Shown here one piece after another: positions 16,991 through 62,593 of a DNA stretch of 64,000 nt (position 1 is its first letter; every line of letters starts with the position of its first letter). The stretch is taken from contig NZ_LMUJ01000031.1 in the NCBI RefSeq assembly GCF_009765975.1, positions 199,182 through 263,181 on the forward strand, written 5' to 3'. This DNA comes from Acidisphaera sp. S103. Lineage in GTDB: Bacteria > Pseudomonadota > Alphaproteobacteria > Acetobacterales > Acetobacteraceae. Position numbers and translations under genes: made by a program. Below the pieces are notes generated by a model. That model worked only from the letters and a program-made list of their open reading frames with translations. It did no database searches and was not told the DNA's origin.

Positions 16991-17042
16991 CAGCGAATCG
17001 AAACCTGTTTCCACGGTAAATACCACTGGGTGCCACTATCCA

Positions 17043-34017: not shown

Positions 34018-34045
34018 GCCTAGAAGTCGGTTGCAAAAACCATAA

Positions 34046-34066
34046 TGCTGTCGTGGTGAGACAGCA
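34046..34066. promoter_or_regulatory. Inverted repeat TGCTGTC-N7-GACAGCA upstream of xoxF
   Basis: Perfect 7-bp arms (34046-34052 and 34060-34066) with a 7-base spacer. It is in an AT-richer patch between the two divergent operons, 28 bases from the other repeat. This is a candidate operator for xoxF or for the divergent relay genes. Confidence 0.5.
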
Positions 34067-34258
34067 ACAGGTTTATTCGTTAGCGCCGCGATACGGTGGC
34101 GGCACACGTTTCCGTGAGAAATGATGCGGCGCATCATGAATGTTCATCATCGAAACGGATTGTATCGTCGATATTCACGGAACCGGTGCCGTGATAGGCG
34201 GGAAGTTGTTTGCGGCGCCGCAGGTATTGCCGCATCCGCCGATCGGGAAAGGAAGACC

Positions 34259-35197: not shown

Positions 35198-35325
35198 GCA
35201 TCCCGGTGAGTTGGGTGGGCCAATTCAGCCGACGCCCGGGAGTCAAGCGTTGGGATCGGACGACCAGGACTGTCGAAGCCGTACAGATTATACTATATGC
35301 GAGTAAAGACCGGATAGGAGGCGAC

Positions 35326-36162: not shown

Positions 36163-36183
36163 AGGCTTCCGGGGCCGGCCGGG

Positions 36184-36576
36184 TCAGAAGCAACTGACGT
36201 CGGCTTCCGCCTGGGCTTCCTGAAGGTCGCGCAGCATGTTGTTGCTTTCGGTGACGCGGAATTCCTGCGCCAGGTAGCCGCCGCCCTCCTGGCGCATGCG
36301 GAGGATGGTTTCGGCCTTTTCATATTGGCTGTATGGCAGCGCCGCGGCGATCGTATCGATCGCGCAGGAGCAGTGATCGAGCGCGTCCCGGGTCTCACCG
36401 TTGGTGGCCATGCAGGCAAACACGTATTCCGCTCGGGCCGCGGTCGGGTAGTCGTTCACGGCGCCGGCCGTTTCGGGTGGCGTGGCGTCTGGGCTGGTGA
36501 CAGTCGGACTCTGGGCCCAGGCGCCGAATCCGGCCAGCACGAATGTCATTGCGAGCGCCGAAATGCGTAGCGTCAT
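36184..36576 (-). CDS. Small secreted protein with CSC motif in the PQQ/xox region
   Basis: 130 residues from the ATG at 36576, behind GGAAGGA. The signal peptide ends near GAWAQS. The mature domain has a Cys-rich core, YVFACMATNG...LDHCSCAIDTIAAALPY, then a helix, YEKAETILRMRQEGGGYLAQEFR. It is downstream of pqqE on the same strand and convergent with the carrier gene. The family is found near methanol oxidation genes, but no function is assigned. Disulfide or heme/metal contact by the C-x-x-x...CSC cysteines is possible. Confidence 0.6.
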   Translation of the reverse strand: MTLRISALAMTFVLAGFGAWAQSPTVTSPDATPPETAGAVNDYPTAARAEYVFACMATNGETRDALDHCSCAIDTIAAALPYSQYEKAETILRMRQEGGGYLAQEFRVTESNNMLRDLQEAQAEADVSCF

Positions 36577-36696
36577 GGCGATCCTTCCCTCCGCGAATAT
36601 CTTATACCGTCGCGCTGACATTGACACACCGGCCTCGGCGTGGATCCGAGACGTCCGCCACCAGGGAGTGGTGGATCAATCCCACGGTACGGCGAA

Positions 36697-37791
36697 TCAG
36701 CCGGAAACCACCGGTCGCCCACGATAAACGTAGTGTGTGTCCCGCACCGCCGCCGCTTGTTCGGCCATGCCCAGGAGCTGCGTGTGATAGGGGGACAGGT
36801 CGCAGCTTGGGTCTGTGGCGGCGGCGTCGCCGGTGATGGCAAGGGCCTGGCAGCGGCAACCGCCGAAATCGCGGTCTCGGAATTCGCAGGACCGGCAGGG
36901 TTCTTTCATCCAGTCGGTGCCTCGGAAGGCTTGGAACGCTGGGGCGTTTTGCCAGATGTCGGCCAGGGGGTGGTCTCGGACCGACCAGAATTCCAGGGGT
37001 ATTGTTTGGGCGGCGTGGCAGGGCAGCACCATGCCGGAGGGGGTTACGTTCAGCGACCGCAAGCCCCAGCCGCCCATGCAGGGTTTCGGGCGGCTGGCGT
37101 AATAATCCGGGATCACCAGGTCGATCAGCACGCGGCCGGCGTGGCGGGCGTGGATGCTGTCCATCTCGGCCATTGCGCGATCGGTTTGTTCGCGGGTGGG
37201 CATCAGGGCGTCTCGGTTGCGCAGCGCCCAGCCGTAGTATTGGGCGTGGGCGATCTCGACGCGGGCGGCACCGAGCGAGACGGCGTAGTCGACCAGGGCT
37301 GAGAGGTTGTGGATGTTGGCGCGGTGGACGACGGCGTTCACCGTCAGGGGCAGTCCGAGTTCGGTGACCCAGGCGGCGAAGGCTTGCTTGCGGACGTGGC
37401 CTCCGGGGTAGCCGGCGATGCGGTCGGCGGATGTGGGCTCGATGTCCTGGACGGAGAGTTGCACATGATCCAGGCCGGCGGTTTGCAGGCGGGCCAGGCG
37501 GTCTCGATCGAGGCCGATCGCGGAGGTGATCAGGTTGGTGTAAAGGCCGGCCTGGCTGGCGGCGGCGGTGATGTCGACGAGGTCGCGACGGGACGCGGGT
37601 TCTCCGCCCGACAGGTGGACTTGCAGCACGCCCATTGCTGCGGCTTCACGGAACACGCGCGCCCAGGTGGCGGTGTCGAGTTCGGTGGTGCGGTCGTCCA
37701 GCGCCAGCGGGTTGGAGCAGTATGGGCAGGCCAGCGGGCACCGGTGCGTCAGTTCGGCCAGCAGGCCCAGCGGCGCCGGGATGCCGGTCAT
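36697..37791 (-). CDS. pqqE: PqqA peptide cyclase (radical SAM)
   Basis: 364 residues. The radical SAM cluster is C-x3-C-x2-C in THRCPLACPYC, followed by the SAM-binding LSGGEP. The C-terminal SPASM-type cysteines are in PCMGGWG, LPCHAAQ, EPCRSCEFRDRDFGGCRCQA and DPSCDLSPYH. PqqE joins Glu and Tyr of PqqA with PqqD as carrier. It overlaps pqqD by 4 bases. Confidence 0.97.
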   Translation of the reverse strand: MTGIPAPLGLLAELTHRCPLACPYCSNPLALDDRTTELDTATWARVFREAAAMGVLQVHLSGGEPASRRDLVDITAAASQAGLYTNLITSAIGLDRDRLARLQTAGLDHVQLSVQDIEPTSADRIAGYPGGHVRKQAFAAWVTELGLPLTVNAVVHRANIHNLSALVDYAVSLGAARVEIAHAQYYGWALRNRDALMPTREQTDRAMAEMDSIHARHAGRVLIDLVIPDYYASRPKPCMGGWGLRSLNVTPSGMVLPCHAAQTIPLEFWSVRDHPLADIWQNAPAFQAFRGTDWMKEPCRSCEFRDRDFGGCRCQALAITGDAAATDPSCDLSPYHTQLLGMAEQAAAVRDTHYVYRGRPVVSG

Positions 37792-38069
37792 GGCGCCAGC
37801 AGTCGTTTCGCAACCATGTCGCGCAGCATGTCGGTGACATCGCCCTCGATCAGGGCGCGATCGGCGGCGAAGACGACGGCAAGTTCGTCGATGATTTCGC
37901 CGACGGTGCGCGTGCCGTCGCAGCGGCGGAGGATTTCGTTGGCGGGGCCTTCGGCCTCGATCACCCGTTCCGGGGACAGAAGAACCCAGGCGTTGCGCGT
38001 GCTGTCGAAGTGCAGGCGCACGCCGGGCGCCAGCTTCGGGCGTTCGGGGAGGTCAGGCATCGGAGTCAT
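37788..38069 (-). CDS. pqqD: PqqD peptide chaperone
   Basis: 93 residues, the small winged-helix protein that binds PqqA and delivers it to PqqE. LHFDSTRNAWVLLSPERVIEAEGPANEILRRCDG is characteristic. The first ATG (38069) overlaps the end of pqqC; a second at 38060 would shorten it by three residues. Confidence 0.95.
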   Translation of the reverse strand: MTPMPDLPERPKLAPGVRLHFDSTRNAWVLLSPERVIEAEGPANEILRRCDGTRTVGEIIDELAVVFAADRALIEGDVTDMLRDMVAKRLLAP

Positions 38070-38793
38070 GGGGCACGAACGCGCCGGGCGGGATCAGGCG
38101 CGGGGTCACGTAGGCGTGATGCAGGGCGTCCATCATGCTCCACAGCACGTCGCATTTGAAAATCAGCGTGTCCATCACTGCCTGTTGCTGTTCGGCGGTC
38201 ACGGCGTGCTGCTTGACCCAATCCAGCGCGAACGTCGCGTCGCGTTCAGCCTGCGGCGGGCGTTTGTCGAAGTAGGACAGGATGTCCGCCGTTACGTAGT
38301 CGTAATTCGCGAGCATTCCGCTCATGCGTTCGGTGATGATCTGCGGGGAGAACAATTCGGTCAGGCAGGAGGCGACGGCTTCCAGCATGCTGCGTTCGCG
38401 CACGTAATGGACATAGGCCTGCACGGCGAAGCGCGTGGCGGGCAACAGCAGGCGGGTGGAGGTGACGTCGGAGCGATCCAGGCCGAGGCCGTCTGTGAGT
38501 TTCAGCCAGCGCTCGATCCCGCCGGGACGGTCGTCGTCGCCGTCGTGGTCGTCCAGGCGCTTGCGCCATTCGCGACGCAGCGCTTGATCCTCGCAGCGGC
38601 CGATCAGAGATGCGTCCTTCAGCGGGATCATCGCCTGGTAGTAGTAGCGATTGAGTGCCCAGGCTTGCACCTGGCCTTTGCTGCACTTGCCGGTGTGCAG
38701 CATCCGATGGAACGGGTGAAGGATGTGGTAGCGTTTGGCGCCGATCTCGCGCAGGCGCGCTTCCAGTTCGCTGCCGCTTAGGACGTTGCTCAT
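38053..38793 (-). CDS. pqqC: PQQ synthase
   Basis: 246 residues of the PqqC family (heme-oxygenase-like all-helical fold). It makes the final ring closure and eight-electron oxidation to PQQ. Conserved parts include RYHILHPFHRMLHTGKCSKGQVQAWALNRYYYQAMIPLKDA and HDGDDDRPGGIERWLKL. Its start overlaps the pqqB stop (ATGA). Confidence 0.97.
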   Translation of the reverse strand: MSNVLSGSELEARLREIGAKRYHILHPFHRMLHTGKCSKGQVQAWALNRYYYQAMIPLKDASLIGRCEDQALRREWRKRLDDHDGDDDRPGGIERWLKLTDGLGLDRSDVTSTRLLLPATRFAVQAYVHYVRERSMLEAVASCLTELFSPQIITERMSGMLANYDYVTADILSYFDKRPPQAERDATFALDWVKQHAVTAEQQQAVMDTLIFKCDVLWSMMDALHHAYVTPRLIPPGAFVPHDSDA

Positions 38794-39716
38794 AGGTCGA
38801 TCTCCATCCCGTCATAGGCGACTTCGAACCCGGCGGCTTCGACGGCCCGACGTTCGGGGGAGTCGTTCACCAGGATCGGATTGGTGTTGTTGATGTGCAG
38901 GAAGATACGCCGGCCGGGCAGATCGGCAAGCCTGGTCAGGGTGCCGTCGGGACCGCTGATCGGGGTGTGGCCCATGCGGCGGCCGGTCTTGCTGCCCAGG
39001 CCGGCGGCAATCATTTCGGTATCAGTGAACAGCGTGCCGTCGAAGAACAGGACGTCGGCCTGGCTGAGTTGGGTGCGGACGGGTTCGGTGATGTCGGCGC
39101 AGGCGGGGGCGACGATGACGATGCGGCCGGCGGTTTGGATCTGGGCGGCGTAGGTTGCGGCGGATTCGGGTTCGGCCGCCGCGTTGCGGTTGTTTTCCAG
39201 GAACAGCGGCACCTTTCCCGGCATGGTCAGCAGGGTCACGGTCAGGTTGCCGGCGCAGGTGAAGGGTTCCATCGGCCTGATTGCCACGCGGCGCACCATC
39301 GTGGGGTCGAGGACGTCGAATACGCGGTTGGTGGCCAGCAGATCGAGCAGTTCGACCGGGGCGTAGACGGTGAAGGGCTGGCGTTCGCGCAGCACCAGCA
39401 GGCCGGCGATGGCGTCGATGTCGCCGCCGATCAGTAGCACGTCCGTGATCGGTGAATCCCGGGTCGGTGTGCGCGGCCAGAGATGGGGGGATTGGGAGAT
39501 TTGCTGGCGGAGGTCGGGCGAGGCGCCGATGAGGAGCCAATTTTCACCATTTCCGGTGACCGCGACGCTGGCCTGGGTGGCCGGGCGGACGCGCGAGTCT
39601 CCTGTGCGGGCCAGGCTGCATTGACGGCATCCACAATTCCATTGTGGAAAACCGCCTCCGGCAGCCGACCCGAGCACGAGGGCAACCGGGTGGGGTTGCC
39701 AATTCTGCTTGGTCAA
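38790..39716 (-). CDS. pqqB: PqqB, metallo-beta-lactamase-fold PQQ protein
   Basis: About 308 residues if translation begins at the TTG at 39716. The protein is certain: VLGSAAGGGFPQWNCGCRQC, LLIGGDIDAIAGLL and a C-terminal LHINNTNPIL are diagnostic. The start is not: no ATG or GTG lies in frame between the pqqA stop and the first conserved strand. The frame otherwise opens at 39842, upstream of pqqA, which would make the two genes overlap. TTG at 39716 is the only plausible start, but no clear ribosome site precedes it. PqqB is a hydroxylase acting on the tyrosine part of the precursor. Confidence 0.9.
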   Translation of the reverse strand: MTKQNWQPHPVALVLGSAAGGGFPQWNCGCRQCSLARTGDSRVRPATQASVAVTGNGENWLLIGASPDLRQQISQSPHLWPRTPTRDSPITDVLLIGGDIDAIAGLLVLRERQPFTVYAPVELLDLLATNRVFDVLDPTMVRRVAIRPMEPFTCAGNLTVTLLTMPGKVPLFLENNRNAAAEPESAATYAAQIQTAGRIVIVAPACADITEPVRTQLSQADVLFFDGTLFTDTEMIAAGLGSKTGRRMGHTPISGPDGTLTRLADLPGRRIFLHINNTNPILVNDSPERRAVEAAGFEVAYDGMEIDL

Positions 39717-39729
39717 TCGAACCGCGGCG

Positions 39730-39807
39730 TCAGACGCGGGCGCTGAAGTACCCGTTGATTTCCATGCCGAGGCAGATTTCGCGTAGTGTCGGGCGGGTCC
39801 ATGCCAT
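39730..39807 (-). CDS. pqqA: PqqA precursor peptide
   Basis: 25 residues (MAWTRPTLREICLGMEINGY then FSARV). The Glu and Tyr of the E-x3-Y motif (E16, Y20) become the PQQ backbone. The ribosome site AGGAGACGACC precedes the ATG at 39807. It lies directly before pqqB in the order pqqABCDE. Confidence 0.97.
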   Translation of the reverse strand: MAWTRPTLREICLGMEINGYFSARV

Positions 39808-39973
39808 AGGTCGTCTCCTATCTTTTTCTTTCGAGAAATCAAAGACTCCGGGAACGATTGCCCCCAGCACAGGGAAGGTTAGCGCATCTTCCGCGGTTAG
39901 GAAAGTGGTTTGCCGCGGCTGTTGGGGGCATCGTGAAATCCCCCCGTTCATTCGGGGCGTTCCGGCCGACGCT

Positions 39974-49702: not shown

Positions 49703-50236
49703 ATGGCCGAAGCCGCGGACGGGCGCGCCTGGTACGAGATCGTGCGAGACGTGTTGAAGCGCCACAACGTTAGCCTGGTCACCTATGTGCCCGACAACGT
49801 GCTGCGGCCGCTGATCGAGGCGATCCATGCCGATCCATTCTTCACCGCCTTCTCCTGCACGCGGGAGGAGGAGGCGTTGGGGATCAACGCCGGTGCGTGG
49901 ATGGGCGGGGTGCGCGGTATCCTGCTGATGCAGACCTCGGGCTTCGCGACGCTGCCGAACGTGCTGGCGTCGCTGTCGGTGCCGTTCTCTATCCCGACGC
50001 TGATGATGGTGTCCGAACGCGGCACGCTGGGCGAGTTCAACATCGGCCAGTCGCTGGTGGCGCGCACGATGCGCCCGGTTCTGGACGCGCTGTCGATCGA
50101 GAACCACACGATGACGCGGCTGGATGAGGTCGAATTCACTGTCGATCGCAGCATCACCCAGGCCGTGGCCACGATGGCGCCGGTCTGTTTCATCCTGTCG
50201 CCGCTGCTGACCGGCGGCAAAGTTTTCGCGAAGTAG
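49703..50236 (+). CDS. TPP-dependent decarboxylase, N-terminal (alpha) subunit
   Basis: 177 residues equal to the N-terminal TPP-pyrimidine domain: VTYVPDNVLRPLIEAI then SCTREEEALGINAGAWMGG (with the conserved Glu) and LMQTSGFATLPNVLASL. It resembles the alpha subunit of sulfopyruvate/phosphonopyruvate-type decarboxylases (ComD-like). The beta subunit follows after 12 bases. Divergent from tcuA, with 96 bases between. Confidence 0.88.
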   Translation: MAEAADGRAWYEIVRDVLKRHNVSLVTYVPDNVLRPLIEAIHADPFFTAFSCTREEEALGINAGAWMGGVRGILLMQTSGFATLPNVLASLSVPFSIPTLMMVSERGTLGEFNIGQSLVARTMRPVLDALSIENHTMTRLDEVEFTVDRSITQAVATMAPVCFILSPLLTGGKVFAK

Positions 50237-50248
50237 GGGGCGGTTGTC

Positions 50249-50878
50249 ATGGCATCGTTAGCGAACCACCCGGCGAACCGGGATCAGGCCAAGGTGATGA
50301 ACCGCTACGACATCACCAAGCGGATGGTCGGGCTGCTGCACCAGGATGAGGCGGTGATCGGCGGCATCGGCTACACCAACTTCGATCTGTGGGCGGCATC
50401 CGAATCAGCGTCCGGACGGCGGCAGCAGAATTTCTACATGCTGGGCAGCATGGGGCTGGCGGTGCCGATTGCGATGGGCGTGGCGATTGCCCAGCCGTCG
50501 CGGAAGGTATTCGCGCTGGAGGGCGACGGCTCGGTGCTGATGCAGCTCGGATCGCTGACCACCGTCGCCGCCAGGGCACAGAAGAACCTGTGCATCGTGA
50601 TCATGGACAACGGCGCGTACCAGATCACCGGCGGCCAGCAGACGACCACACACCAAGGTGCCGATATCGTCGGGATCGCTCGGGCGGCTGGGCTGACGCA
50701 GAGCGCGTGGGCGGCGGATGAAGATGCGTTTGTGGAACTGATCGGGCGGTCGCTGAAGGAAGACGGGCCGTGGCTGATCGGATGCCGGATCGATAATCAG
50801 AAGCCGGTGGACACGACGGAACGCGATCCGGCTCGGATTCGGGACAACTTCATGCGGGGGTTGGGGGTGAGAGGGTAA
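50249..50878 (+). CDS. TPP-dependent decarboxylase, C-terminal (beta) subunit
   Basis: 209 residues with the TPP diphosphate-binding motif EGDGSVLMQLGSLTTVAARAQKNLCIVIMDNGAYQ (GDG...N). It resembles ComE-type subunits. The alpha-beta pair acts as one enzyme on a 2-oxo acid; sulfopyruvate, phosphonopyruvate or another 3-carbon acid are candidates. The ATG at 50249 is 12 bases after the alpha stop; a GTG-rich stretch precedes it. Confidence 0.88.
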   Translation: MASLANHPANRDQAKVMNRYDITKRMVGLLHQDEAVIGGIGYTNFDLWAASESASGRRQQNFYMLGSMGLAVPIAMGVAIAQPSRKVFALEGDGSVLMQLGSLTTVAARAQKNLCIVIMDNGAYQITGGQQTTTHQGADIVGIARAAGLTQSAWAADEDAFVELIGRSLKEDGPWLIGCRIDNQKPVDTTERDPARIRDNFMRGLGVRG

Positions 50879-51245: not shown

Positions 51246-52169
51246 CTAACCGCGCCGGCGGCGCGCGAGCCTGATCCCGGCGAGCGCGGTGACGAGGATC
51301 GCCGCCGAGGCTGGTTCCGGGGCAGGCGCCGGCCCCGCATAGCTGATCGTCACGTAGCCATTGCCGGTCCGAACGCCGGACTGAAACTCCGGGTCCAAGG
51401 CCCCAGCCTCGAGAAACGACCCGCCGCCGCCACCGCCGTCGAAATAGGAACCCCCACCACCGGAATATCCGCCACCGCCGCCGCCAGCATGCCTGGTTGC
51501 GCCGCCGCCACCGCCAAACCCGCCGGCACCACCCTGAAGGTTCGAGCCGCCGCCCATGAACGTTGCGTAACCGGAACCTCCGTCAGCCGAGACGGTGCCG
51601 TTGCCGTTTCCGCCCGCGCCGCTGAAGCCCGCACCTCCTGCGCCGTTCAACCCGGTCGCGGTGCCGCCACCGCCGCCCAGACCTCCGATTCCACCGGCGC
51701 CGGCGTTGCCGTGGCCACCGACCCCACTTTGCCCGTTCAGGCCTGTCACACCGGCGCCGCCGTTGCTGCCGCCTTCATAGGCCGCGCCGCCCCCGGCGCC
51801 GCCACCGCCGCCGGCCGCTCCCAGGAGCGTCGATCCGACAAACGCGAAGCTGCCGCCGCCGCCGCCGCCGCCGCCGGGACTGGCATCGAAGCCGCCCGTC
51901 CCCGAGGCCCCGGCACCGCCGACGACAACGCTCAACTCCTCCCCGGCGGTCAACAGAATCTCGCCGCTGACGGAGGCGCCTTCGCCGCCCGTGAAGCCCC
52001 CGGGCGAGTTGCCGCCCTGCGCGCCCGACAGAGTGATGTCGTATTCCCCGGTCGTGGTCACGTCGTAGGTCTGGGTCGTGCCGGTGTAAGAGAACGGCGT
52101 GGCTTGCGCGCCGGTCCCGGCAACACAGATCGCGAGCAGCGAGACACCCGCCAAAAGATCAAGTTTCAT
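51246..52169 (-). CDS. Glycine-rich secreted protein with PEP-CTERM-like tail
   Basis: 307 residues from the ATG at 52169 (behind GGGAAC; an ATG at 52181 is four codons upstream). The signal peptide ends near GTGAQA. A beta-rich start, FSYTGTTQTYDVTTTGEYDITLSGAQGG, leads into about 200 residues of extremely Gly-rich sequence of the ALK/LTK glycine-rich type. The C-terminus has PEPASA, a hydrophobic helix and a basic RLARRRRG end, matching the PEP-CTERM/exosortase sorting layout. It is probably an extracellular matrix or surface protein. The Gly tracts make antisense frames unusually long; those are shadows. Confidence 0.75.
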   Translation of the reverse strand: MKLDLLAGVSLLAICVAGTGAQATPFSYTGTTQTYDVTTTGEYDITLSGAQGGNSPGGFTGGEGASVSGEILLTAGEELSVVVGGAGASGTGGFDASPGGGGGGGGSFAFVGSTLLGAAGGGGGAGGGAAYEGGSNGGAGVTGLNGQSGVGGHGNAGAGGIGGLGGGGGTATGLNGAGGAGFSGAGGNGNGTVSADGGSGYATFMGGGSNLQGGAGGFGGGGGATRHAGGGGGGYSGGGGSYFDGGGGGGSFLEAGALDPEFQSGVRTGNGYVTISYAGPAPAPEPASAAILVTALAGIRLARRRRG

Positions 52170-52182
52170 TATTGTTCCCATT

Positions 52183-52559: not shown

Positions 52560-52590
52560 TTGACCATAGGTAATGTTATGATATAACATT
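52560..52590 (+). promoter_or_regulatory. Promoter-like site overlapped by an inverted repeat
   Basis: TTGACC (52560-52565), 16-base spacer, TATAAC (52582-52587). An 8-bp perfect inverted repeat, AATGTTAT-GAT-ATAACATT (52572-52590), overlaps the -10. This is the arrangement expected of a repressed sigma-70 promoter for the receptor gene 300 bases downstream. AT-rich against its surroundings. Confidence 0.5.
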
Positions 52591-52895: not shown

Positions 52896-55283
52896 GTGAA
52901 CAGAAAAACGCGCGCCATGACTGCTGCCCTTTGGGGCATTTTGGTCACCAGTAGCCATCCTGGATACGCCCAAACCCCGACGGTGGTATCGTCTGAAACG
53001 GTGACCGGCGTCGCGCGCGACGCGTTGCAGCGTCCGCTCGACAGCGTTCAAATCCGCCTGGAAACGCCGGACGGCAAAGTGATCGCGCGCGGCACGACCC
53101 AAAAAAATGGCAAGTACACGCTGCCTACGGTTGCACCAGGTGTCTACTCGCTGATTGGCGAGAAGACAGGATTTGCGACCGCGACCGCAGTCGTAACGGT
53201 CGGGGCGAAGGGAGTGGCAAGCGATCTGACGCTCGCGTCCAACGAAGCCCTCGATATGAAAGTTGCAGCCGAACGGCTCGCCGCGGCACGGAGCGAGACG
53301 GAGCCGCGCATCGGCGCCACCACCTATACGCTCGACAACGGTGCGATCCAGGATCAACCGGGAGGCTCGAACATCCCGCTCAATCAAACCCTGTTGCAGG
53401 CCCCGGACGTCTCTCAGGACTCGTTTGGTCAAATCCATCTCCGCAATGACCACGCCAACATTCAATACCGGATCAACGGCGTGATTCTACCCGAGGGCAT
53501 CAGCTTTTTCGGCCAGAGCCTGAGCTCGCGTTTTGCGAGTTCCGTCGATCTCATCACCGGGTCCTTGCCGGCCCAGTATGGCTTGGTGACAACGGGCATC
53601 GTTGATATTCAAACCAAATCGGGTGCATTCGAGCCAGGCGGTTCAGTCGGCTTCTATGGCGGCAGCCACGGCTGGATGGAGCCAAGCCTGGAATATGCCG
53701 GGTCGGCCGGCAATCTCAATTACTATATCTCTGGGGATCTACTTCAGAACGGCATCGGCATCGAAAATCCGACCAGTTCGAGCAATCCGATCCATGATCA
53801 AACGAGACAAGGTCATGGTTTCGCCTATCTGGAAGATATCATCGACCCAACGAGCAAGATCAGTTTGATCCTTGGCGCCTACCAAGGCAGCTTCCAGATC
53901 CCGAACAGTCCAGGTCAGGCACCTGCTTTTCAATATCTCAACCAGACGAACTTCAACTCGACGCTGCTCAACGACACCCAGCAGGAGAGCAATGATTACG
54001 CCGCGCTGTCCTATCTCAAGACCGAAGACAACTACAGTTTTCAGATCTCGGCCTTCACGCGGTACAGCAGGCTTGCCTACTCCCCCGACGACGTCGGCGA
54101 TCTCATGTTCTTTGGGCTGGCGCAGAACGCGCTTCGCACCGACGTCGCGGAGGGTCTCCAGGCTGACGCAAGCTACAAGCTCAACGACAGCCACACCTTG
54201 CGCTACGGAGGATTGGTCACCGCGGAACATGCAGCCTCGAACACCAATTCCCAGGTCTTTCCCTGCCTTGACCTGGCATGCAGCAGCGTCGGAACCAGCC
54301 CAACCTCTGTCAATGACAGCAGCGCCATCACCGGATGGACCTACAGCGCCTATGCTCAGGACGAGTGGAAGCTGCTTCCGACCGTTACGCTCAATTACGG
54401 TGCGCGCTTCGATGTGCTGAACGCCTACACCAATACCAATCAGCTCAGCCCGCGTGTCAACGTTGTGTGGAAGCCCACGTCGGACACCACGCTGCACGCC
54501 GGCTATTCGCGTTATTTCACGCCGCCGGCCTTGGAGCTGGTCTCCGGAGAATCGATCGCCAAGTTCGCGGGAACAACAGGCTACCCCGCGGGGTATACAC
54601 CGGCATCCCCGCCCGCCGACGGAGCGATCTTGCCGGAGCGTTCGAATTACTTCGATATCGGCGCGGACCATACCTTCGCGCCTGGCCTGAAGCTGGGTGT
54701 GGATGCGTTTTACAAGATTGCGCAGGATCTGATCGATGAAGGACAATTCGGCGCGCCGATCATCCTCTCAGTCTTTAATTACGCCCACGCGGATGTTTAC
54801 GGCATCGAGTTTACCGGCAGCTATAAACGCGGCAACTGGTCGGCGTACGGCAATCTCTCCGTAGGCCGGGAACGTGCGACCCAGGTTGCATCGCAACAAT
54901 TCAATTTTACACCGGCCCAACTCGCATTCATTTCGAGCAACTACATCTATACGGACCACAGTCAATGGGTCACCGCTTCGGGCGGTATTGCTTACACCTG
55001 GTTGGGTACCCGCTTCAGTGCCGATATGATTTATGGATCGGGCCTCCGGCAGGATAGTGGCGACATTCCGAATGGGGGTACGGTACCCGGCTATACCCAG
55101 GTCAATCTCGGTGTCTCGCACCGCTTCCAGAACATGCCCGGCGGCCCGATCGAACTGAGTCTGAATCTGATGAATGTCTCTGATAGCATCTATGAAATCC
55201 GTTCGGGAACGGGTGTCGGTGTGTTCGCGCCGCAATACGGTCCACGCCGAGCCATCTACGCCGGCATACGAAAATTCTTTTGA
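52896..55283 (+). CDS. TonB-dependent outer membrane receptor with carboxypeptidase-regulatory-like domain
   Basis: 795 residues. The signal peptide ends near HPGYAQT. Residues about 30-110 are a carboxypeptidase-regulatory-like beta-sandwich (VTGVARDALQRPLDSVQIRLETPDG). A plug region follows (LLQAPDVSQDSFGQIHLRND, GSLPAQYGLVTTGIVDIQTKSG), then the beta-barrel, ending in the outer-membrane signal KFF. Receptors with this layout import siderophores, saccharides or metal chelates. It is followed at once by ExbB, ExbD and TonB genes and then by a quinoprotein island, so a metal chelate or alcohol-related ligand is an inference. A LutH-like lanthanide-chelate role is possible. Confidence 0.9.
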   Translation: MNRKTRAMTAALWGILVTSSHPGYAQTPTVVSSETVTGVARDALQRPLDSVQIRLETPDGKVIARGTTQKNGKYTLPTVAPGVYSLIGEKTGFATATAVVTVGAKGVASDLTLASNEALDMKVAAERLAAARSETEPRIGATTYTLDNGAIQDQPGGSNIPLNQTLLQAPDVSQDSFGQIHLRNDHANIQYRINGVILPEGISFFGQSLSSRFASSVDLITGSLPAQYGLVTTGIVDIQTKSGAFEPGGSVGFYGGSHGWMEPSLEYAGSAGNLNYYISGDLLQNGIGIENPTSSSNPIHDQTRQGHGFAYLEDIIDPTSKISLILGAYQGSFQIPNSPGQAPAFQYLNQTNFNSTLLNDTQQESNDYAALSYLKTEDNYSFQISAFTRYSRLAYSPDDVGDLMFFGLAQNALRTDVAEGLQADASYKLNDSHTLRYGGLVTAEHAASNTNSQVFPCLDLACSSVGTSPTSVNDSSAITGWTYSAYAQDEWKLLPTVTLNYGARFDVLNAYTNTNQLSPRVNVVWKPTSDTTLHAGYSRYFTPPALELVSGESIAKFAGTTGYPAGYTPASPPADGAILPERSNYFDIGADHTFAPGLKLGVDAFYKIAQDLIDEGQFGAPIILSVFNYAHADVYGIEFTGSYKRGNWSAYGNLSVGRERATQVASQQFNFTPAQLAFISSNYIYTDHSQWVTASGGIAYTWLGTRFSADMIYGSGLRQDSGDIPNGGTVPGYTQVNLGVSHRFQNMPGGPIELSLNLMNVSDSIYEIRSGTGVGVFAPQYGPRRAIYAGIRKFF

Positions 55284-55372
55284 GCAGGCTTGATGTCCCT
55301 TCTCGCCATAAACGACAAAGGAATATACATGCACACGATAGCCGCCAGGACGACGCGGTTTCAGGAGCAAGC

Positions 55373-56029
55373 GTGGAACAGGTAAGTGACGTCATCAATG
55401 CGTTACGGGTCGGCGGCGTGGCTGTCTACCCGCTGGGCCTGCTGGCGGTCGTTGCGATCGTTATCGTGATCGACAAGATGTTTCTGTTCTTCGTGCAGAC
55501 CCGCCTGCCACAAGACCTGGTAGCCCTGGTCGAAAACTATGGTTTCGGCTGGGACGCCCTGGCACAACGGCTCGGCCGGCTTGGCGCGCGCAACCATTTT
55601 GCGCGCTTCCTAAGCGTCATTCTTGACAATCGAACACATCCCGTTTGGTGGGTGGAATCACGCGCCGCCGATGAAGCGGCGCTGATCGAGAAATCTCTGG
55701 CCCGCTGGTTATGGGTTCTCGAAACCATTGTGACCGCTGCCCCGCTCCTTGGATTGCTGGGCACCATCACCGGCATGATTCGTTCGTTCAAGTTGTTCGG
55801 CAATCAGGGCCTGGTCGACCCCGCGGGGGTAACGGGCGGTGTGGCCGAGGCGCTGATCGCGACCGCACTCGGACTGTTCGTGGCACTGATCGCGCTGTTT
55901 GCTTTCAACTATTGTTCTGATCGTCAAGCCCGGATCATGGACGAAATGGAGCGGCTCGGCACCCGCGTCATTGATCATATCCGGCTCGATACGCAGGAGG
56001 ATCGGCATGAAGCTGCGCTCCGCGCATAA
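55373..56029 (+). CDS. exbB: ExbB/MotA-TolQ family proton channel
   Basis: 218 residues from the GTG at 55373, behind AGGAGC; an open frame from 55280 is an overrun of the receptor end. Three membrane helices are visible (VYPLGLLAVVAIVIVIDKMFLFF, TIVTAAPLLGLLGTITGMIRSF, EALIATALGLFVALIALFAFNY). It energises TonB with ExbD. The 3' end overlaps exbD by 23 bases. Confidence 0.92.
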   Translation: MEQVSDVINALRVGGVAVYPLGLLAVVAIVIVIDKMFLFFVQTRLPQDLVALVENYGFGWDALAQRLGRLGARNHFARFLSVILDNRTHPVWWVESRAADEAALIEKSLARWLWVLETIVTAAPLLGLLGTITGMIRSFKLFGNQGLVDPAGVTGGVAEALIATALGLFVALIALFAFNYCSDRQARIMDEMERLGTRVIDHIRLDTQEDRHEAALRA

Positions 56030-56399
56030 ACGCCGCCGCGGCCGCATCGAGATCATCCCAATGATCGATGTGATGTTCTTCCTGCTCGCGACCTTTATGC
56101 TGGCCTCTCTGACAATGCAGAACCTGCACTCGCTCCGGGTCGATCTGCCGCAAGGAAGCGCGACGCCGCTGGCCGTGTCAAAGTCGGTCACCTTGACCGT
56201 TACCGCGACAGGCAATCTTTTTCTGGATAAGGTTCCCGTGACACTCGATACGCTTGCCTCGGCGTTGAAGCCACCGGAAGGCCGGACGGTTGTGGTCGCG
56301 GCCGACAGGGCGGCGCCAAACGGGACTGTGGTCGAGGCCATGCTGCAAGCGCGCGAGGCCGGCGTAGAAGAGTTCGTCTTCGCCATTCGCAAGGAGTAG
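56007..56399 (+). CDS. exbD: ExbD/TolR biopolymer transport protein
   Basis: 130 residues from the ATG at 56007, behind AGGAGGA. It has one N-terminal membrane helix containing the essential Asp (EIIPMIDVMFFLLATFMLA) and a periplasmic domain. It is part of the private TonB energising unit. Confidence 0.92.
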   Translation: MKLRSAHKRRRGRIEIIPMIDVMFFLLATFMLASLTMQNLHSLRVDLPQGSATPLAVSKSVTLTVTATGNLFLDKVPVTLDTLASALKPPEGRTVVVAADRAAPNGTVVEAMLQAREAGVEEFVFAIRKE

Positions 56400-56401
56400 G
56401 C

Positions 56402-57112
56402 GTGCGGGTAGACAGGCCATGGGTCCGGTTGGCCTGGACACTGCCCATGGCGCTTGTTGTGACAGCGCTGGCCTTGACCGGATTTCTCGATGTCCTGACC
56501 CAAGGCGCGTCGCCACCCCCCGCATCCAAGCCAGTGGCGATGCAGATCATCGAACTGCCGCCACAACCATCGCAGCCCCAACCGGCACCGGCAATCGAAA
56601 CACCACCGCCGGCAGAGGCGACAGAGGTGCCACCGCCCGTAAGCGCGCCGCCGACGCCCACGACACCTATGACGCCAACGACAAAGACACTGCCGCCACC
56701 CCCGCCCGTGCCAGCACGGAAACCGCAGCCCACCCAACCGCCGCACCGCCGGGATCTGTCGCGGCAACGTCCGCGGGATCAAACCGCCGCACCGGCTCAG
56801 GTGCCTACGTCAGCACCTGTCACGCAGAGTCCCCCGGGCGGTATGACCATGGGGGTCCGGGCACTCTACCAGCCGATGCCGGACATTCCGGAGGAACTGC
56901 GGCATCGCGAACTTGCGGTTGTCGCAATGGCACGCTTCCACGTTGCGGCTGATGGCAGCGCGACAGTCACATTACTTCAGGCAACCGCCGACCCTCGCCT
57001 CAATGCGGCTTTGATGTTCGCCCTGCGGAAATGGCGTTTTTTCCCTGCCATGGACAATGGACAGCCGGTCGCGTCGACAATCGATATCCGCGTTCCTATC
57101 GATGTTCACTAA
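56402..57112 (+). CDS. tonB: TonB energy transducer
   Basis: 236 residues from GTG at 56402. A single N-terminal membrane helix is followed by a Pro/Thr-rich spacer typical of TonB (PPPPPVPARKPQPTQPPHRR). The C-terminal domain (ELAVVAMARFHVAADGSATVTLLQATADPRLNAALMFALRKWRFFPA) contacts the receptor plug. The dedicated receptor-exbB-exbD-tonB set makes a self-sufficient uptake system. Confidence 0.92.
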   Translation: MRVDRPWVRLAWTLPMALVVTALALTGFLDVLTQGASPPPASKPVAMQIIELPPQPSQPQPAPAIETPPPAEATEVPPPVSAPPTPTTPMTPTTKTLPPPPPVPARKPQPTQPPHRRDLSRQRPRDQTAAPAQVPTSAPVTQSPPGGMTMGVRALYQPMPDIPEELRHRELAVVAMARFHVAADGSATVTLLQATADPRLNAALMFALRKWRFFPAMDNGQPVASTIDIRVPIDVH

Positions 57113-57340
57113 CCCTGACACGCAAGCAGGGGATCCGAGCGCCCGCCATCCGGTTGCTTGACAGTGTTTTCGGCGGTCGCTACGGTCAAATGGCAAATAA
57201 TACTGGCAAGTAGGGAAAAGTTCCCGATGGACTAGCAACGTCAGGAAATAATTTGCAATGAACTGGAACAGTGCTGATTGTGCTGATCCTATCAGGTGTC
57301 AGTACGATGTCCCGGGCCGTTCGGCAGCGGCGCGCGCAAC

Positions 57341-57934
57341 GTGAACGACCATCGATCCTGGACAGAGTTATGGCCCCGGCGGTCTATGCTGGGAGTGGCC
57401 TATGTACTGGCCGCGGCGACCCGAACCAGCCTCCCTGCCCGCGCGGATGACCCGCCGGATGCCGCCCGCGGCATGTTGGCGCAGGTCGGCGATCAACTGG
57501 TTGCCTTCGGCAGCGAAGACGGCGGTGCTCCCCTCGCGGTGTCGGATATCCCGCCTCACAGCGACGTCGTCCTGGCCTGGCCGCTCGATACGGCGCGTCG
57601 TGTCGCGCGCAATGCGTCTCGGCTGAACCTCATCATTCTGATGCACTTCGACCCATCCAGCCTGTCCGGGCCGGAAACGGCGCGCGCCGCGAATGGCATC
57701 GTCGCTTTCACGGCGGTCTGTTCCCATCAGGCCTGTTGGGTGACCGACTGGCTGTCGTCCAAGCAGTTGCTTCAGTGCCCTTGCCATCAGTCCGAATACG
57801 ATCTGCGGCAGGGCGGAAAAGTGGTGTCCGGACCGGCACCGCGCGGACTCGCGGGGCTGCCGTTGAAGGTAGCCGACGGCAAACTGGTCGTCGCCGGCCC
57901 ATTCACCGATCGTGTGGGAGGCCAAAAGCTATAG
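57341..57934 (+). CDS. Periplasmic Rieske [2Fe-2S] protein
   Basis: 197 residues from the GTG at 57341; a GTG at 57296 is possible and the start is uncertain. A Tat-type leader (WPRRSMLGVAYVLAAATRTSLPARA) suggests export folded with its cluster. Ligands are C-x-H in CSHQAC and C-x2-H in CPCHQSEYDL, and both extra cysteines of the disulfide found in high-potential cytochrome bc1-type Rieske proteins are there. It is 100 bases upstream of the quinoprotein gene, so an electron-transfer role there is likely. Confidence 0.85.
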   Translation: MNDHRSWTELWPRRSMLGVAYVLAAATRTSLPARADDPPDAARGMLAQVGDQLVAFGSEDGGAPLAVSDIPPHSDVVLAWPLDTARRVARNASRLNLIILMHFDPSSLSGPETARAANGIVAFTAVCSHQACWVTDWLSSKQLLQCPCHQSEYDLRQGGKVVSGPAPRGLAGLPLKVADGKLVVAGPFTDRVGGQKL

Positions 57935-58034
57935 ACAACGCAGCGACGCGCGAACTGTGACGAGGCTGCGACGTCCCGCCAAAAGCAGGGCACGACGGTA
58001 ATGCCAAAGCAAAACGCAACCGGGGAGAACGTCG

Positions 58035-59771
58035 ATGAAAGGTATAAGCTACATAGTTCCGCTGGCAGTGGCCGCTGGGTTGTCGTGGGGGGTGAGCGGC
58101 ACGACCGCCTTCGCGGGCTCGGTAACCGGCTATCAGCCGGTCACCCAGGACAGGCTGGACAATCCGGGACCCGCCGATTGGCTGCTTTACCGGCGCACCT
58201 ATGACGGCCACGGTGACAGCCCGCTGCGGCAGATCAACGTCGACAACGTCAAGGACCTGACGCCCGTCTGGACGTTCTCGACCGGCGTGGTGGAGGGGCA
58301 TGAGGCGCCGCCCATGGTCAACAACGGCGTCATGTTCGTGACCACGCCAGGCGATCAGGTGCTCGCGCTCGATGCGGCCAGCGGCGACCTGCTGTGGCGC
58401 TACGCGCCGAAGCTGCCGGAAGACCTCTTTCAACTGCACCCGACCAATCGCGGCGTCGCGTTCTGGGGCAACAATCTCTATCTGGCGACGACGGACTCAC
58501 GCCTGATCGCGCTCGACGCGAAGACCGGTAAAGTCGTGTGGGAGGCAACGGTCGGCGACTATCACCACGGCGAATACATGACGCTCGAACCCCTGGTGGT
58601 GAACGGCAAGGTGATAATCGGCACGTCGGGCGGCGAATTCGGCGTCCGCGCTTATATCGCCGCCTATGACGCCGATACCGGCAAGGCACTGTGGAAGACC
58701 TACACCGTGCCAAGCCCGTCCGAACCCGGCGGCGACACCTGGAATACCGATGCCTGGAAGACCGGCGGTGGTTCGGTCTGGATCACCGGCAATTACGATC
58801 CAAAGCGCAACCTCGCCTATTGGGGGGTCGGTAACGCCGCCCCATGGCCCGGCGACCTGCATCCGGGCGACAATCTCTACACCAGTTCGACCATCGCGCT
58901 TGATCCGGACACCGGCAAGATCGTCGCATATCACCAGTATCATCAGAACGATTCCTGGGATTGGGATGAAGTGCGGCCGCCGATACTGATCAATATGACT
59001 CGTGACGGGAAGACAATCGATGCGCTGGTGCATCCGGCACGTGACGGCTATCTGTGGGTGCTGCAGCAGACCGATGACGGCATCAAGTTCATCTCCGGCA
59101 AGCCGTTTGTTTACCAGAATGCTTTCAAGAGTCTCGATCCGCAGACCGGGCGTCCCACGTACGACCTGGACCACAAGCCTGTTGTCGGCAAGACCGTAAC
59201 GTTCTGCCCGTCGCTATGGGGCGGGGATGATTGGACGTCGTCGGCCTATAGCGACGAGACGCACCTGGTCTACATTCCGGCCAACAACAACATGTGCGGC
59301 TCCAACGAAGGCGTCGACAAGAAACTTCTGGTCGGGCAGTTGTGGCTCGGCGTTGATCCCAGCACCAACAAACTGGTACCCAACGGCCAGCATATCGGCG
59401 AATTGCAGGCCTGGGATCCGGCGACAGGCAAGCAGGCCTGGATGTATCCGTTCCCCAATCAGCTTTTCGCCTCGGTGCTGACCACCGCGGGCGGCCTGGT
59501 GTTCGTGGGCGGCACCAATGACCGCATGTTCCGGGCCTTCGATGCCAAGACGGGTGAACTGCTGTGGCAGCAGCGCACCAATTCGGGGATCATCGGCATG
59601 CCCGTCGCCTTTCAGGTGGGCGATACCGAATATATCGCCGTGCAGTCTGGCTGGGGCGTGGATGCCCAGCGAATTCAGAACTCGCTGGCGAAGACATCGA
59701 TGAAGCTCGACCCTGATGAGGTCCCGCAAGGCGGCGTCGTCTGGGTGTTTGCCGTGCGGCACCACAACTAG
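58035..59771 (+). CDS. PQQ-dependent alcohol dehydrogenase, lanthanide-type, atypical
   Basis: 578 residues with a signal peptide ending near TTAFAGS. The PQQ propeller W-motif repeats are present ([39 protein letters not shown]). The catalytic Asp309 and Asp311 form D-W-D in NDSWDWDEV, the same +2 Asp that marks lanthanide use in XoxF/ExaF-type enzymes. The vicinal Cys-Cys of XoxF (near the [10 protein letters not shown] segment) is replaced by Gln-Leu, so the adjacent-cysteine ring above PQQ is missing. A second disulfide pair (FCPSL, NMCGS) remains. The substrate is unknown; primary alcohols are likely. Confidence 0.88.
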
Positions 59772-59821
59772 CCAAATGCGTCGGGGCGCGTCCCGCAATT
59801 TTCAGAATGAAAGGCGAAGAC

Positions 59822-60274
59822 ATGGTTACGCTCAAAGTCAACGGCCAGAATTTCACATATGACGGGGACCCGGAGGTGCCCCTGCTGTGGGTGCTGCGTG
59901 ATGAGCTTGGCCTGACAGGCACGAAGTTCGGCTGCGGTGCCGGGCTTTGCGGCGCCTGCACCGTGCATCTTGACGGCACCGCGGTGCGATCCTGCAGTGT
60001 GGAGGTGAGCGACGCCGCGGACAAGACAATCGTTACCATCGAAGGACTGGACCCGCATGGCGACCATTTGGTTCAGCGGGTCTGGCGGGAGGCGAATGTG
60101 CCGCAATGCGGCTACTGTCACGCCGGACAGATCATGCAGGCCGCGGCGCTGCTCGCCGCCAACCCGAAGCCGGCCCCGGACGATGTGATGCAAACCATGT
60201 CCGGGAACATCTGCCGCTGCGGCTGTTATCAGCGCATCGCCGAGGCCATCGCTCTCGCTTCGACAGGAGCCTGA
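59822..60274 (+). CDS. [2Fe-2S] subunit of molybdenum hydroxylase (IorA-like)
   Basis: 150 residues from the ATG at 59822 (an ATG at 59807 would add five). Two clusters are shown by [15 protein letters not shown] (plant-type) and [14 protein letters not shown]...[10 protein letters not shown] (C-terminal cluster). It passes electrons from the molybdenum subunit next door. It follows the PQQ dehydrogenase by 50 bases. Confidence 0.92.
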
Positions 60275-60277
60275 GCC

Positions 60278-62593
60278 ATGACATACATGTTCGATCCCGA
60301 ACCGATCCCGGCCGGCGCGATTGTCAATGTCAGCCGCCGTTTCCTGCTGAAGGGCGCTGTTGCGACCGGAACGCTGGTGCTGGGGGCCAGCCTGCTGCCT
60401 GGCCGAGCGATGGCGGAATGGGCGACCGGCGCCGGCGCGATGCCGGGCGGCACCGTCAACGATCCGCATGTCTATATCGCCATCGATCCGTCCGGACTGG
60501 TGACGATCCTCACCAACCGCTCCGAGATGGGCACCGGTGTACGCACCAGCCTGCCGATGGTCGTTGCCGATGAGATGGAGGCCGACTGGTCCCGCGTTCA
60601 GGTGAAGCAGGCGCCGGGCGACGAAACGAAATACGGCAACCAGGATACCGATGGATCGCGCAGCGTGCGGCACTTCGTCCAGCCAATGCGCCAATGCGGC
60701 GCCGCGATGCGGACGATGCTCGAACAGGCCGCGGCCAAACGCTGGGGCGTCGATCCGTCGGAGGTGAAGGCCGACAACCACGTCGTCGTCCACCTCACCT
60801 CCGGCTACAAGGCCGGCTTCGGTGAACTGGCGGCCGCCGCGGCGGCGCTGCTGACCCCCCCGGTATCGACGCTGAAACTGAAGGATCCAAGCCAGTTCCG
60901 CTATATCGGGACTGGCACGATCTCGATCGTCGATCTGCACGACATCACCACCGGTCATGCGCCGTACGGCATCGACGCCAAGATCCCCGGGATGAAGTTC
61001 GCCGTCGTCGCCCGCCCGCCGGTCGTCGGCGGCAAGCTGGTATCCTTCGATGCGACCGAGGCGCTGAAGGTTCCGGGCGTCGAGAAGGTCGTGGAGGTGA
61101 AGGGGTGGCCCTGGCCGTCGAAGTTCATGCCGGTCGGCGGCGTCGCCGTCGTCGCCCGCAACACGGGTTCGGCGATCAAGGGGCGCGAGAAACTGCAGAT
61201 CGTCTGGGACAATGGGGCGAACGCGACCTACGACTCGGGCGCCTTCCGCAAGGCGATGGAGGAGACCGCGAGCCAACCCGGGCTGGTGGTCCGCAATGAC
61301 GGCGATGCCGACGCAGCGCTGAAATCCGCCGCCAAGGTGGTCACCGCGCAGTACTACATCCCACATTTGTCCCACGCCACCATGGAGCCGCCGTCGGCGA
61401 CGGTAAACGTTGCGGACGGCAAATGCGTGGCCTACGCGGCGACGCAGAGTCCCGGCGGGTGTCGGGACGATCTGGCAAAGATACTGGGCTTGTCCGTCGA
61501 CGACGTCACGGTGAACGTGCCGCTACTTGGCGGCGGTTTCGGCCGCAAGTCGAAATGGGACTACGTGCTGGAAGCTGCCCTGGTGTCGAAGACGGTGAAC
61601 GCGCCGATCAAGCTGACCTGGACGCGTGAGGACGACATTCAGCACGATTTCTACCACACCGTCTCGGTGGAGCGGATCGACGCCGGGGTGGATGCCAGCG
61701 GCAAGGTTGTCGCCTGGCGGCACCGCAGCGTCGCACCGTCGATCGCCTCGACGTTCAAAGCCGGCGTAGACCATGAGGCACCGTTCGAACTCGGCATGGG
61801 ACTGGTGGACAATCCGTTCGACATTCCCAATCTGCGCTGCGAGAACGGAGCCTGTACAGCGCACACGCGGATCGGATGGTTCCGGTCGGTGTCCAACATC
61901 CCGCACGGCTTTGCCGTGCAATCCATGGTGGCGGAACTGGCCGCGGCGTTAGGACGCGATCCCAAGGACATGCTGCTGACGCTGATCGGGCCGGACCGCA
62001 TCGTCGATCCGCGCAAATCGCCGGGCGTGAAGGGATTCTGGAACTATGGCGATCCGTTCGACACCTATCCGATCGACACCGCCCGGCTGCGCCGCGTGGC
62101 GGAGCGGGCGGCGCAGGCGGCAGGCTGGGGCAAGACCCTGCCGAAAGGCCAGGGGCTTGGCATCGCGGCGCATCGCAGCTTCCTGACCTACGTGGCGACG
62201 GTGGCGCACGTGGCGGTGGACGACCACGGTAACCTCAGCGTCCCCAACGTCTACACCACGATGGATTGCGGCTTTCATATCAACCCCGAACGAATCCGCT
62301 CGCAGATCGAGGGCGCGGCGGTGATGGGTCTCGCCCTCGCGAAGAACAGCGAGATCACCTTCAAGAACGGGCGCGTGGAGCAGCAGAACTTCGACGGCTT
62401 CATGGTCGCTCGGATTGATGAGGCGCCGTTGCACGTGCATGTCGACATCGTTCCGGCCGATTGGAGCGTGCCGGCCAGCGGCGTCGGTGAGCCCGGGCTG
62501 CCGCCGTTCGCCCCGGCTTTGTGCAACGCGATCTTCGCGGCGACCGGCAAGCGCATCCGCAGCCTGCCGATCGGTCAGCAGCTTTCGACCTGA
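60278..62593 (+). CDS. Molybdopterin-binding subunit of xanthine dehydrogenase-type oxidoreductase (IorB-like)
   Basis: 771 residues. The Tat leader SRRFLLKGAVATGTLVLGAS predicts periplasmic export in folded form. Family blocks include GTGVRTSLPMVVADEMEADW, HATMEPPSATV, LLGGGFGRKSKWDYV and GEPGLPPFAPALCNAIFAATG with the catalytic Glu (GEPG). With the iron-sulfur subunit it should oxidise an aldehyde or N-heterocycle. Next to an alcohol dehydrogenase, aldehyde oxidation is the simplest idea. No cytochrome c subunit is in the unit, unlike acetic acid bacterial aldehyde dehydrogenases. Confidence 0.9.
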   Translation: MTYMFDPEPIPAGAIVNVSRRFLLKGAVATGTLVLGASLLPGRAMAEWATGAGAMPGGTVNDPHVYIAIDPSGLVTILTNRSEMGTGVRTSLPMVVADEMEADWSRVQVKQAPGDETKYGNQDTDGSRSVRHFVQPMRQCGAAMRTMLEQAAAKRWGVDPSEVKADNHVVVHLTSGYKAGFGELAAAAAALLTPPVSTLKLKDPSQFRYIGTGTISIVDLHDITTGHAPYGIDAKIPGMKFAVVARPPVVGGKLVSFDATEALKVPGVEKVVEVKGWPWPSKFMPVGGVAVVARNTGSAIKGREKLQIVWDNGANATYDSGAFRKAMEETASQPGLVVRNDGDADAALKSAAKVVTAQYYIPHLSHATMEPPSATVNVADGKCVAYAATQSPGGCRDDLAKILGLSVDDVTVNVPLLGGGFGRKSKWDYVLEAALVSKTVNAPIKLTWTREDDIQHDFYHTVSVERIDAGVDASGKVVAWRHRSVAPSIASTFKAGVDHEAPFELGMGLVDNPFDIPNLRCENGACTAHTRIGWFRSVSNIPHGFAVQSMVAELAAALGRDPKDMLLTLIGPDRIVDPRKSPGVKGFWNYGDPFDTYPIDTARLRRVAERAAQAAGWGKTLPKGQGLGIAAHRSFLTYVATVAHVAVDDHGNLSVPNVYTTMDCGFHINPERIRSQIEGAAVMGLALAKNSEITFKNGRVEQQNFDGFMVARIDEAPLHVHVDIVPADWSVPASGVGEPGLPPFAPALCNAIFAATGKRIRSLPIGQQLST

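Follow-up and report, generated by a model that had tools for sequence, protein, structure and literature searches.

To our knowledge, the acceptors of soluble alcohol dehydrogenases that depend on pyrroloquinoline quinone (PQQ) are held to be c-type cytochromes. Here we analyzed a 64,000-nucleotide stretch of the Acidisphaera sp. S103 genome (hereafter the window; contig 80, positions 199182-263181, of a genome of 8.37 Mb and 116 contigs), in which such a dehydrogenase is encoded between a Rieske protein and a molybdenum (Mo) hydroxylase. With PedH (6zcv/6zcw) and XoxF, the window enzyme shares the PQQ enzyme fold and conserved Glu, Asn and Asp positions, including the extra Asp, but it differs from both in lacking an adjacent Cys-Cys pair and in having a Rieske gene directly adjoining. 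The Rieske protein of Thermus thermophilus (1nyk, 3fou) resembles that of the window over the whole domain; the window gene, in contrast, is encoded with a PQQ dehydrogenase, and the cytochrome b of the genome lies elsewhere. Both subunits of the Mo hydroxylase find their best solved relative in the membrane-bound aldehyde dehydrogenase of Gluconobacter oxydans (8gy3), whereas the window module has no cytochrome subunit gene and sets the two subunits in operon order with the PQQ dehydrogenase and Rieske genes. Arsenite oxidase AioAB (8ed4) has what we take to be an exported Rieske partner relaying electrons to cytochrome c, which would work alike, although its catalytic partner is presumably a Mo enzyme of another family and the window Rieske protein is only distantly similar.

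We consider it likely that positions 57296-62593 encode a module for alcohol oxidation in the periplasm whose core is a dedicated pair of Rieske protein and quinoprotein, with the Rieske protein in the role of cytochrome c. The module consists of a Thermus-like Rieske [2Fe-2S] protein of the twin-arginine translocation (Tat) type, the proposed electron acceptor (57296-57934, with a possible GTG start at 57341), the PQQ alcohol dehydrogenase (58035-59771), the AldG/IorA-like 2Fe-2S small subunit of the Mo hydroxylase (59807-60274) and its Tat-type, AldH/IorB-like molybdopterin large subunit (60278-62593), in which Glu738 of the GxGE motif is invariant. Since the gaps between these genes measure only 100, 35 and 3 bases, the arrangement is operon-like. 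An earlier analysis of this DNA (the original prediction) had joined them with a TonB system upstream into a single import-and-oxidation island. All eight genes are present on the + strand, in the order TonB receptor-ExbB-ExbD-TonB and then Rieske-PQQ-2Fe-2S-Mo, the 2Fe-2S subunit being additional to those in the prediction's title. They form, however, two neighbouring units, a TonB block (52896-57112) and the oxidation module, and the latter is a real, conserved unit.

The dehydrogenase matches TIGR03075 with 578.9 bits (cut-off 480.05), and its closest named relatives are from Acetobacteraceae. Residues Glu201, Asn267, Asp309 and Arg336, which we take to be the metal and PQQ ligands, are invariant in alignments of 15 and 16 rows, their positions being assigned by alignment. 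A D-x-D lanthanide motif (WDWD) occupies residues 308-311, and the enzyme is probably lanthanide-loaded, judging from this motif. The window encodes a first PQQ dehydrogenase at 32004-33860 on the - strand, so that the prediction of a second enzyme with the lanthanide Asp was confirmed. Its description as atypical also holds, because the adjacent Cys-Cys pair, kept in 15 of the 17 PQQ enzymes without a linked Rieske gene, is absent; HPTNRG stands where the pair would be. As the structural model of the enzyme reached a modest mean predicted local distance difference test (pLDDT) score of 68.6, no metal-site geometry was drawn from it. We also considered an "empty" quinoprotein devoid of cofactor and rejected it, given 578.9 bits to the active family against 343.6 to the empty group (cut-off 650), the retained ligands and the presence of pqqB and pqqE in the window. 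The first dehydrogenase belongs to a canonical quinoprotein region (26718-29298 and 32004-39842); it has the Cys-Cys pair, and the region also encodes a PedC-type ATP-binding cassette (ABC) transporter, a quinoprotein relay hydrolase, a SoxYZ-like carrier, pqqB and pqqE.

The window Rieske protein contains the ligand motif CxHxxC...CxCHxS and both disulfide cysteines, as in the high-potential type. Its AlphaFold model (mean pLDDT 81.4) predicts a Rieske fold with a template-modelling score of 0.94 to Thermus 1nyk, normalised to the target, and the sequence search agrees, matching the Thermus protein over the whole domain (E 4e-52). Among 113 distinct Rieske proteins linked to PQQ genes, 111 have the ligand and disulfide motif, the other two being cut at a contig end or having an early-ending frame, and 110 have a twin-Arg motif. 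We rejected a bc1 Rieske subunit: all bc1-type NCBIfam matches are below cut-off and no cytochrome b gene is adjacent. The genome has 25 Rieske-domain matches and a single cytochrome b match, and since the latter (C110:281545) sits on contig 110 beside another Rieske match (C110:281159), the window protein is not the bc1 subunit. The N-termini of the Rieske proteins at L040, L042, L043, L044 and L058 have a short Cys-rich stretch (e.g. CCxC) before the twin-Arg signal.

To assess how widely the pair occurs, we ran three overlapping searches with the dehydrogenase, over genome contigs, the class and the family. The profile scan of genome contigs covered the best 80 of at least 586 relatives, and in 80 of these 80 (at least 51% identity) a Rieske gene lies directly upstream of the PQQ gene; 69 loci have the Mo gene and 50 have genes of glutathione-linked formaldehyde oxidation, while parts of the TonB system occur at none of the 80. 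The class search found relatives in 13 of 385 genomes, at 14 places besides the window. All 10 places at 52-63% identity have a Rieske gene on the same strand within 1 kb; it is absent from all four places at 39-44%, three of which have a CxxCH motif in the flank. Matches in the family search came from 46 of 299 genomes, with a Rieske gene at 29 of 29 places at 54-80% besides the window (L052 among them). Of 21 further places at 40-43%, one was inspected (L247), which has no Rieske gene and a cytochrome c-like gene (28% identity). Together, none of the five places inspected at 39-44% has a Rieske gene (0/5); four have CxxCH in the flank, and a cytochrome-like gene was matched at one (L247). 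On plasmids, the pair was found at 43.6-63% identity in Roseomonas, Methylobacterium (two places), Azoarcus, Alteromonas, four Paracoccus records (one judged by match coordinates only) and Deinococcus, and a Caballeronia plasmid relative (41%) has a cytochrome c gene in place of the Rieske gene.

Searching from the Rieske side gave a similar picture. In the phylum search, 12 of 398 genomes matched, and 11 of 11 matches other than that of the window are beside a PQQ gene. The family search yielded 39 matches in 36 of 299 genomes, namely the window, 33 inspected and 5 uninspected; of those inspected, 30 are beside a PQQ gene, two are not and one is cut at a contig end (G074). Plasmid relatives of the Rieske protein in Thermus, Meiothermus and Kozakia are not beside PQQ genes. 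The Thermus plasmid gene (L188, 4851-5444) is located amid zwf, 6-phosphogluconolactonase and glycosidase genes, without PQQ.

The linkage persists when gene order changes. Counting Rieske-linked PQQ genes with exact repeats removed and near-copies remaining, window included (115 loci, the basis of all counts over 115 below), 110 have the order Rieske-PQQ and five PQQ-Rieske, and the Mo and 2Fe-2S genes occur in either orientation. The order Rieske-PQQ-2Fe-2S-Mo recurs in Acetobacteraceae with different flanks (L047, L048, L050, L054, L058) and on a Roseomonas marmotae plasmid, and G099 (L066) has 2Fe-2S-Mo-Rieske-PQQ. Most of the best 80 genome-contig loci are from Bradyrhizobium, so that this sample is biased to the genus; there, Mo and 2Fe-2S genes converge on the Rieske-PQQ pair; next come gfa and the genes of a zinc-type dehydrogenase and a cytochrome c, and then a second PQQ gene. 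Because the grouping of the four genes is conserved in other genomes, it is not due to chance. Bradyrhizobium archetypum (L101) has two tandem Rieske-PQQ pairs. In L040, a small protein without a Pfam match (16458-17015) adjoins the module, with relatives in L051, L054, L057, L058, L059 and L065; none was seen in the window.

Judged by sequence, the linked enzymes form a discrete family, though identity alone draws no border. In a quick tree of 71 rows, one branch separates 59 linked from 12 unlinked enzymes with a Shimodaira-Hasegawa-like approximate likelihood ratio test (SH-aLRT) value of 98, and with the five enzymes of 39-44% identity included (72 rows, 55 linked against 17) the value is 93; both trees were built quickly and contain long branches. 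By alignment, 114 of 115 linked enzymes lack the Cys-Cys pair ahead of the NRG/SRG motif, the exception being Deinococcus, the earliest offshoot among the linked enzymes in the 71-row tree. Two unlinked enzymes (L038, L061) are also without it, and the pair is therefore common rather than defining for PQQ alcohol dehydrogenases. All 17 unlinked enzymes and 107 of the 115 linked ones have the second Asp of D-x-D. Pairwise distances of PQQ and Rieske proteins correlate with r 0.80 over 42 dereplicated loci (a value reached in none of 2000 permutations), and at the 21 loci with Mo the coefficients are 0.82 for PQQ-Rieske and 0.57 for PQQ-Mo.

Next, we considered the aldehyde step. The matches of the Mo enzyme to 8gy3 (chains B and C) have E-values of 3.5e-52 for the 2Fe-2S subunit and 9.4e-73 for the Mo subunit, and the Mo-binding domains, 2Fe-2S subunit and GxGE motif of AldFGH/IorAB-type enzymes are all present. 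We take the 8gy3-type enzyme (AldFGH) to have a cytochrome c subunit, AldF. Between 51001 and 64000 of the window the only CxxCH is CGYCH of the 2Fe-2S subunit, and no genome-wide search for AldF was made. A Mo gene is found within 7 kb at 87 of 115 loci and aldA, an NAD-type aldehyde dehydrogenase gene that replaces it at some loci, at 10 (one with both); thus 96 loci have at least one of them and 19 neither. Where the flanks reach 5 kb or more on both sides, 82 of 93 loci have one or the other. Since Mo gene and aldA alternate between loci, an aldehyde is supported as product. The predicted conversion of alcohol to aldehyde to acid gains support as well, as many genomes keep the four genes together and some loci without Mo have aldA.

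We infer the working of the module, from the PQQ-to-Rieske transfer and the final acceptor to substrate, lanthanide use and sharing of the Rieske protein, as follows. The PQQ dehydrogenase, probably carrying a lanthanide, would oxidise an alcohol to the aldehyde in the periplasm. The Tat-exported Rieske protein would take electrons singly from PQQH2 and pass them to the respiratory chain, standing in for the c-type cytochrome (XoxG or a haem domain fused to the enzyme) of other PQQ alcohol dehydrogenases. The Tat-exported two-subunit Mo hydroxylase would then oxidise the aldehyde to the acid, and its 2Fe-2S subunit may also deliver electrons to the same Rieske protein, as no cytochrome subunit accompanies the Mo enzyme in the window. 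The Bradyrhizobium context suggests small alcohols as substrate. Alternatively, the main partner of the Rieske protein could be the Mo hydroxylase, much as AioB serves arsenite oxidase, with the Rieske gene only travelling alongside the PQQ gene. The frequency of nearby Mo genes, the missing counterpart of the cytochrome subunit of 8gy3 and the distant relationship of AioB to the window Rieske protein agree with this. We nevertheless regard it as improbable, since 28 of the 115 loci (all Rieske-PQQ by construction) have no nearby Mo gene, including those of Paracoccus, Alteromonas, Azoarcus and Deinococcus, and the Mo gene lies on the opposite strand at most Bradyrhizobium loci.

Several observations weigh against a dedicated Rieske acceptor. 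CxxCH motifs also occur in the flanks of 4 of the 38 Rieske-linked loci of the same comparison, and are therefore weak evidence for a cytochrome. The Deinococcus plasmid enzyme (43.6%) is Rieske-linked yet retains Cys-Cys, so neither identity nor loss of Cys-Cys strictly defines the pair. Two family Rieske matches (G217, G078:C23) are away from PQQ genes, and the uninspected matches make up 5 of 39. Ala replaces the lanthanide Asp in 8 of 115 linked enzymes, including Paracoccus and Alteromonas, which indicates that the choice of metal varies while the Rieske partner stays. The correlated distances can be obtained from shared descent alone, and 11 of the 93 loci with flanks of at least 5 kb have neither Mo nor aldA. 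Moreover, many Bradyrhizobium loci have a cytochrome c gene a few kb off, adjoining the second PQQ gene, and a conserved neighbour such as a Rieske protein may act in maturation, sensing or protection. The Rieske protein might accordingly be a sensor, assembly or protective factor, with electrons going to a soluble cytochrome c encoded elsewhere; that the window has no dedicated downstream acceptor beside the Rieske gene would fit. However, the ligands and disulfide positions of electron-transfer Rieske proteins are retained, and the Rieske gene is also found at loci where that cytochrome gave no match. We consider such an accessory role unlikely, though somewhat less so than service to the Mo enzyme, and prefer the Rieske protein as acceptor of the dehydrogenase.

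Whether the same exchange was made throughout the clade is a more tentative matter. Members were seen in Bradyrhizobium, Acetobacteraceae, Paracoccus, Methylobacterium, Azoarcus, Alteromonas and Deinococcus. The joint proposal, that Rieske replaces cytochrome c, that every member except the most divergent one lost Cys-Cys and that the Rieske protein of Mo-bearing members drains both oxidation steps, is possible but in our estimate has the odds against it. A team of PQQ dehydrogenase and Rieske protein is apparently undescribed: we found no description in the open-access papers searched, which leave most subscription journals uncovered, and the available sections of PMC11102522, PMC4013037, PMC11996626, PMC10715153 and PMC5023235 do not mention the pair. 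If the Rieske partner is real, it would change the placement of these dehydrogenases in the respiratory chain, their assay and their wiring to electrodes, and provide a natural test of the purpose of the Cys-Cys ring. It would also give a function to a gene pair of many Bradyrhizobium and other genomes, often located near methanol-oxidation genes. We presume, from the order of locus tags and not by sequence, that the PQQ alcohol dehydrogenase bll6220 is a member of the Rieske-linked clade. It is listed among the constantly present bacteroid proteins in the accessible part of PMC6320959. In B. japonicum, mxaF', blr6214 (cytochrome c), flhA and gfa form one transcriptional unit for methanol oxidation, according to the accessible part of PMC4070659.

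The TonB block comprises a TonB-dependent receptor with an N-terminal CarboxypepD_reg domain (52896-55283), of zinc type by context, ExbB (55280-56029), ExbD (56007-56399; start approximate, at about MKLRSAHK, inside the frame 55899-56399) and TonB (56402-57112), all on the + strand. Upstream lies a Zur-box-like site, AATGTTATGATATAACATT (52572-52590), with nine-base arms of which 8 bases pair. Its core GTTATGATATAAC (52575-52587) differs from the pattern GTTATANTATAAC at one position; elsewhere in the window the pattern is matched three times, each with three mismatches, and 1.9 matches of up to three mismatches are expected by chance. In the accessible part of PMC4176598, ATTGTTATGATATAACATC is the Zur site before znuG in Caulobacter crescentus, and its core has the same 13 bases as that of the window. 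A predicted Zur box thus precedes the receptor, as is characteristic of Zur-regulated zinc uptake. The Zur-controlled zinc receptors ZnuK and ZnuL of Caulobacter (same part of PMC4176598) likewise have a Zur-site core ahead of a TonB receptor gene, but the window block brings its own ExbB-ExbD-TonB, and the receptors are likened by context, not by sequence.

Receptors of this kind occur widely: at E 1e-60 they match in 119 of the 299 family genomes. A GTTATN3ATAAC site precedes the matched receptor region at 4 of 7 fetched receptor loci (L079, L080, L084, L089; in L080 inside the longest frame), and was not found before the receptor in L081, L082, L083, G094 or three plasmid loci. Also at L079 are genes for an ABC-3 metal permease, an ATPase and a Fur-family protein. 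The receptor-ExbB-ExbD-TonB order is found again in Paraburkholderia sprentiae, where it follows a Fur-family regulator next to ZigA and a zinc ABC transporter; no such setting was seen at two Sphingomonas loci. The Zur-like site and the zinc genes that accompany this gene order in Paraburkholderia lead us to read the block as probably a Zur-controlled zinc-uptake unit unrelated to the oxidation module. Close ExbB relatives are limited to 2 of 150 family genomes, that of the window and G094, a draft assembly with 7% contamination. The G094 contig ends within ExbB, and a Fur-family gene follows TonB, with NikR and a nickel transporter beyond, which makes nickel a weaker alternative to zinc; Rieske-PQQ-2Fe-2S-Mo is located on a separate contig without TonB genes.

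Homologs of the window TonB genes within 7 kb occur near none of the 114 other non-redundant Rieske-PQQ loci, some of which end at contig ends, and thus at 1 of 115, the window itself. By the refuting condition named with the original prediction, parts unlinked in relatives, the TonB system therefore fell away as a part of the unit, and since no inspected relative has this neighbourhood, its place beside the oxidation genes may be due to chance. The single island, in which an own TonB system imports a substrate or metal chelate for periplasmic oxidation, draws on the shared strand, the distance of 183-228 bp between TonB and Rieske genes, a terminator scan that lists none between them on the + strand, and TonB-dependent receptors of another kind near the PQQ gene in Alteromonas (about 6 kb; L043, 15555-17603) and G585 (about 5 kb; L182, 13474-15465). 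We regard it as very improbable: besides the counts above, the closest relatives L047-L049 (PQQ 76-80%) lack these TonB genes, a Zur-like site precedes the block, the block recurs elsewhere next to ZigA, zinc ABC genes and a gene of the Fur family, and the third-position GC content of receptor, ExbB and TonB (0.65-0.69) is below that of the Rieske, PQQ, 2Fe-2S and Mo genes (0.74-0.84). Of the predicted import, a metal, likely zinc, probably remains for the TonB block alone, whereas substrate import was ruled out by the linkage data and the Zur-like site.

The window contains no transfer RNA gene. The promoter scan was uninformative (3 found, 2.8 expected), and the terminator scan gave 14 against 8.9 expected. 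Just 5' of the zinc block, 51246-52181 (-) encodes a glycine-rich exported protein with an end that looks PEP-CTERM-like by eye. Further upstream, two adjoining genes (49703-50878) resemble the halves of a thiamine pyrophosphate enzyme of the sulfopyruvate/phosphonopyruvate decarboxylase type.

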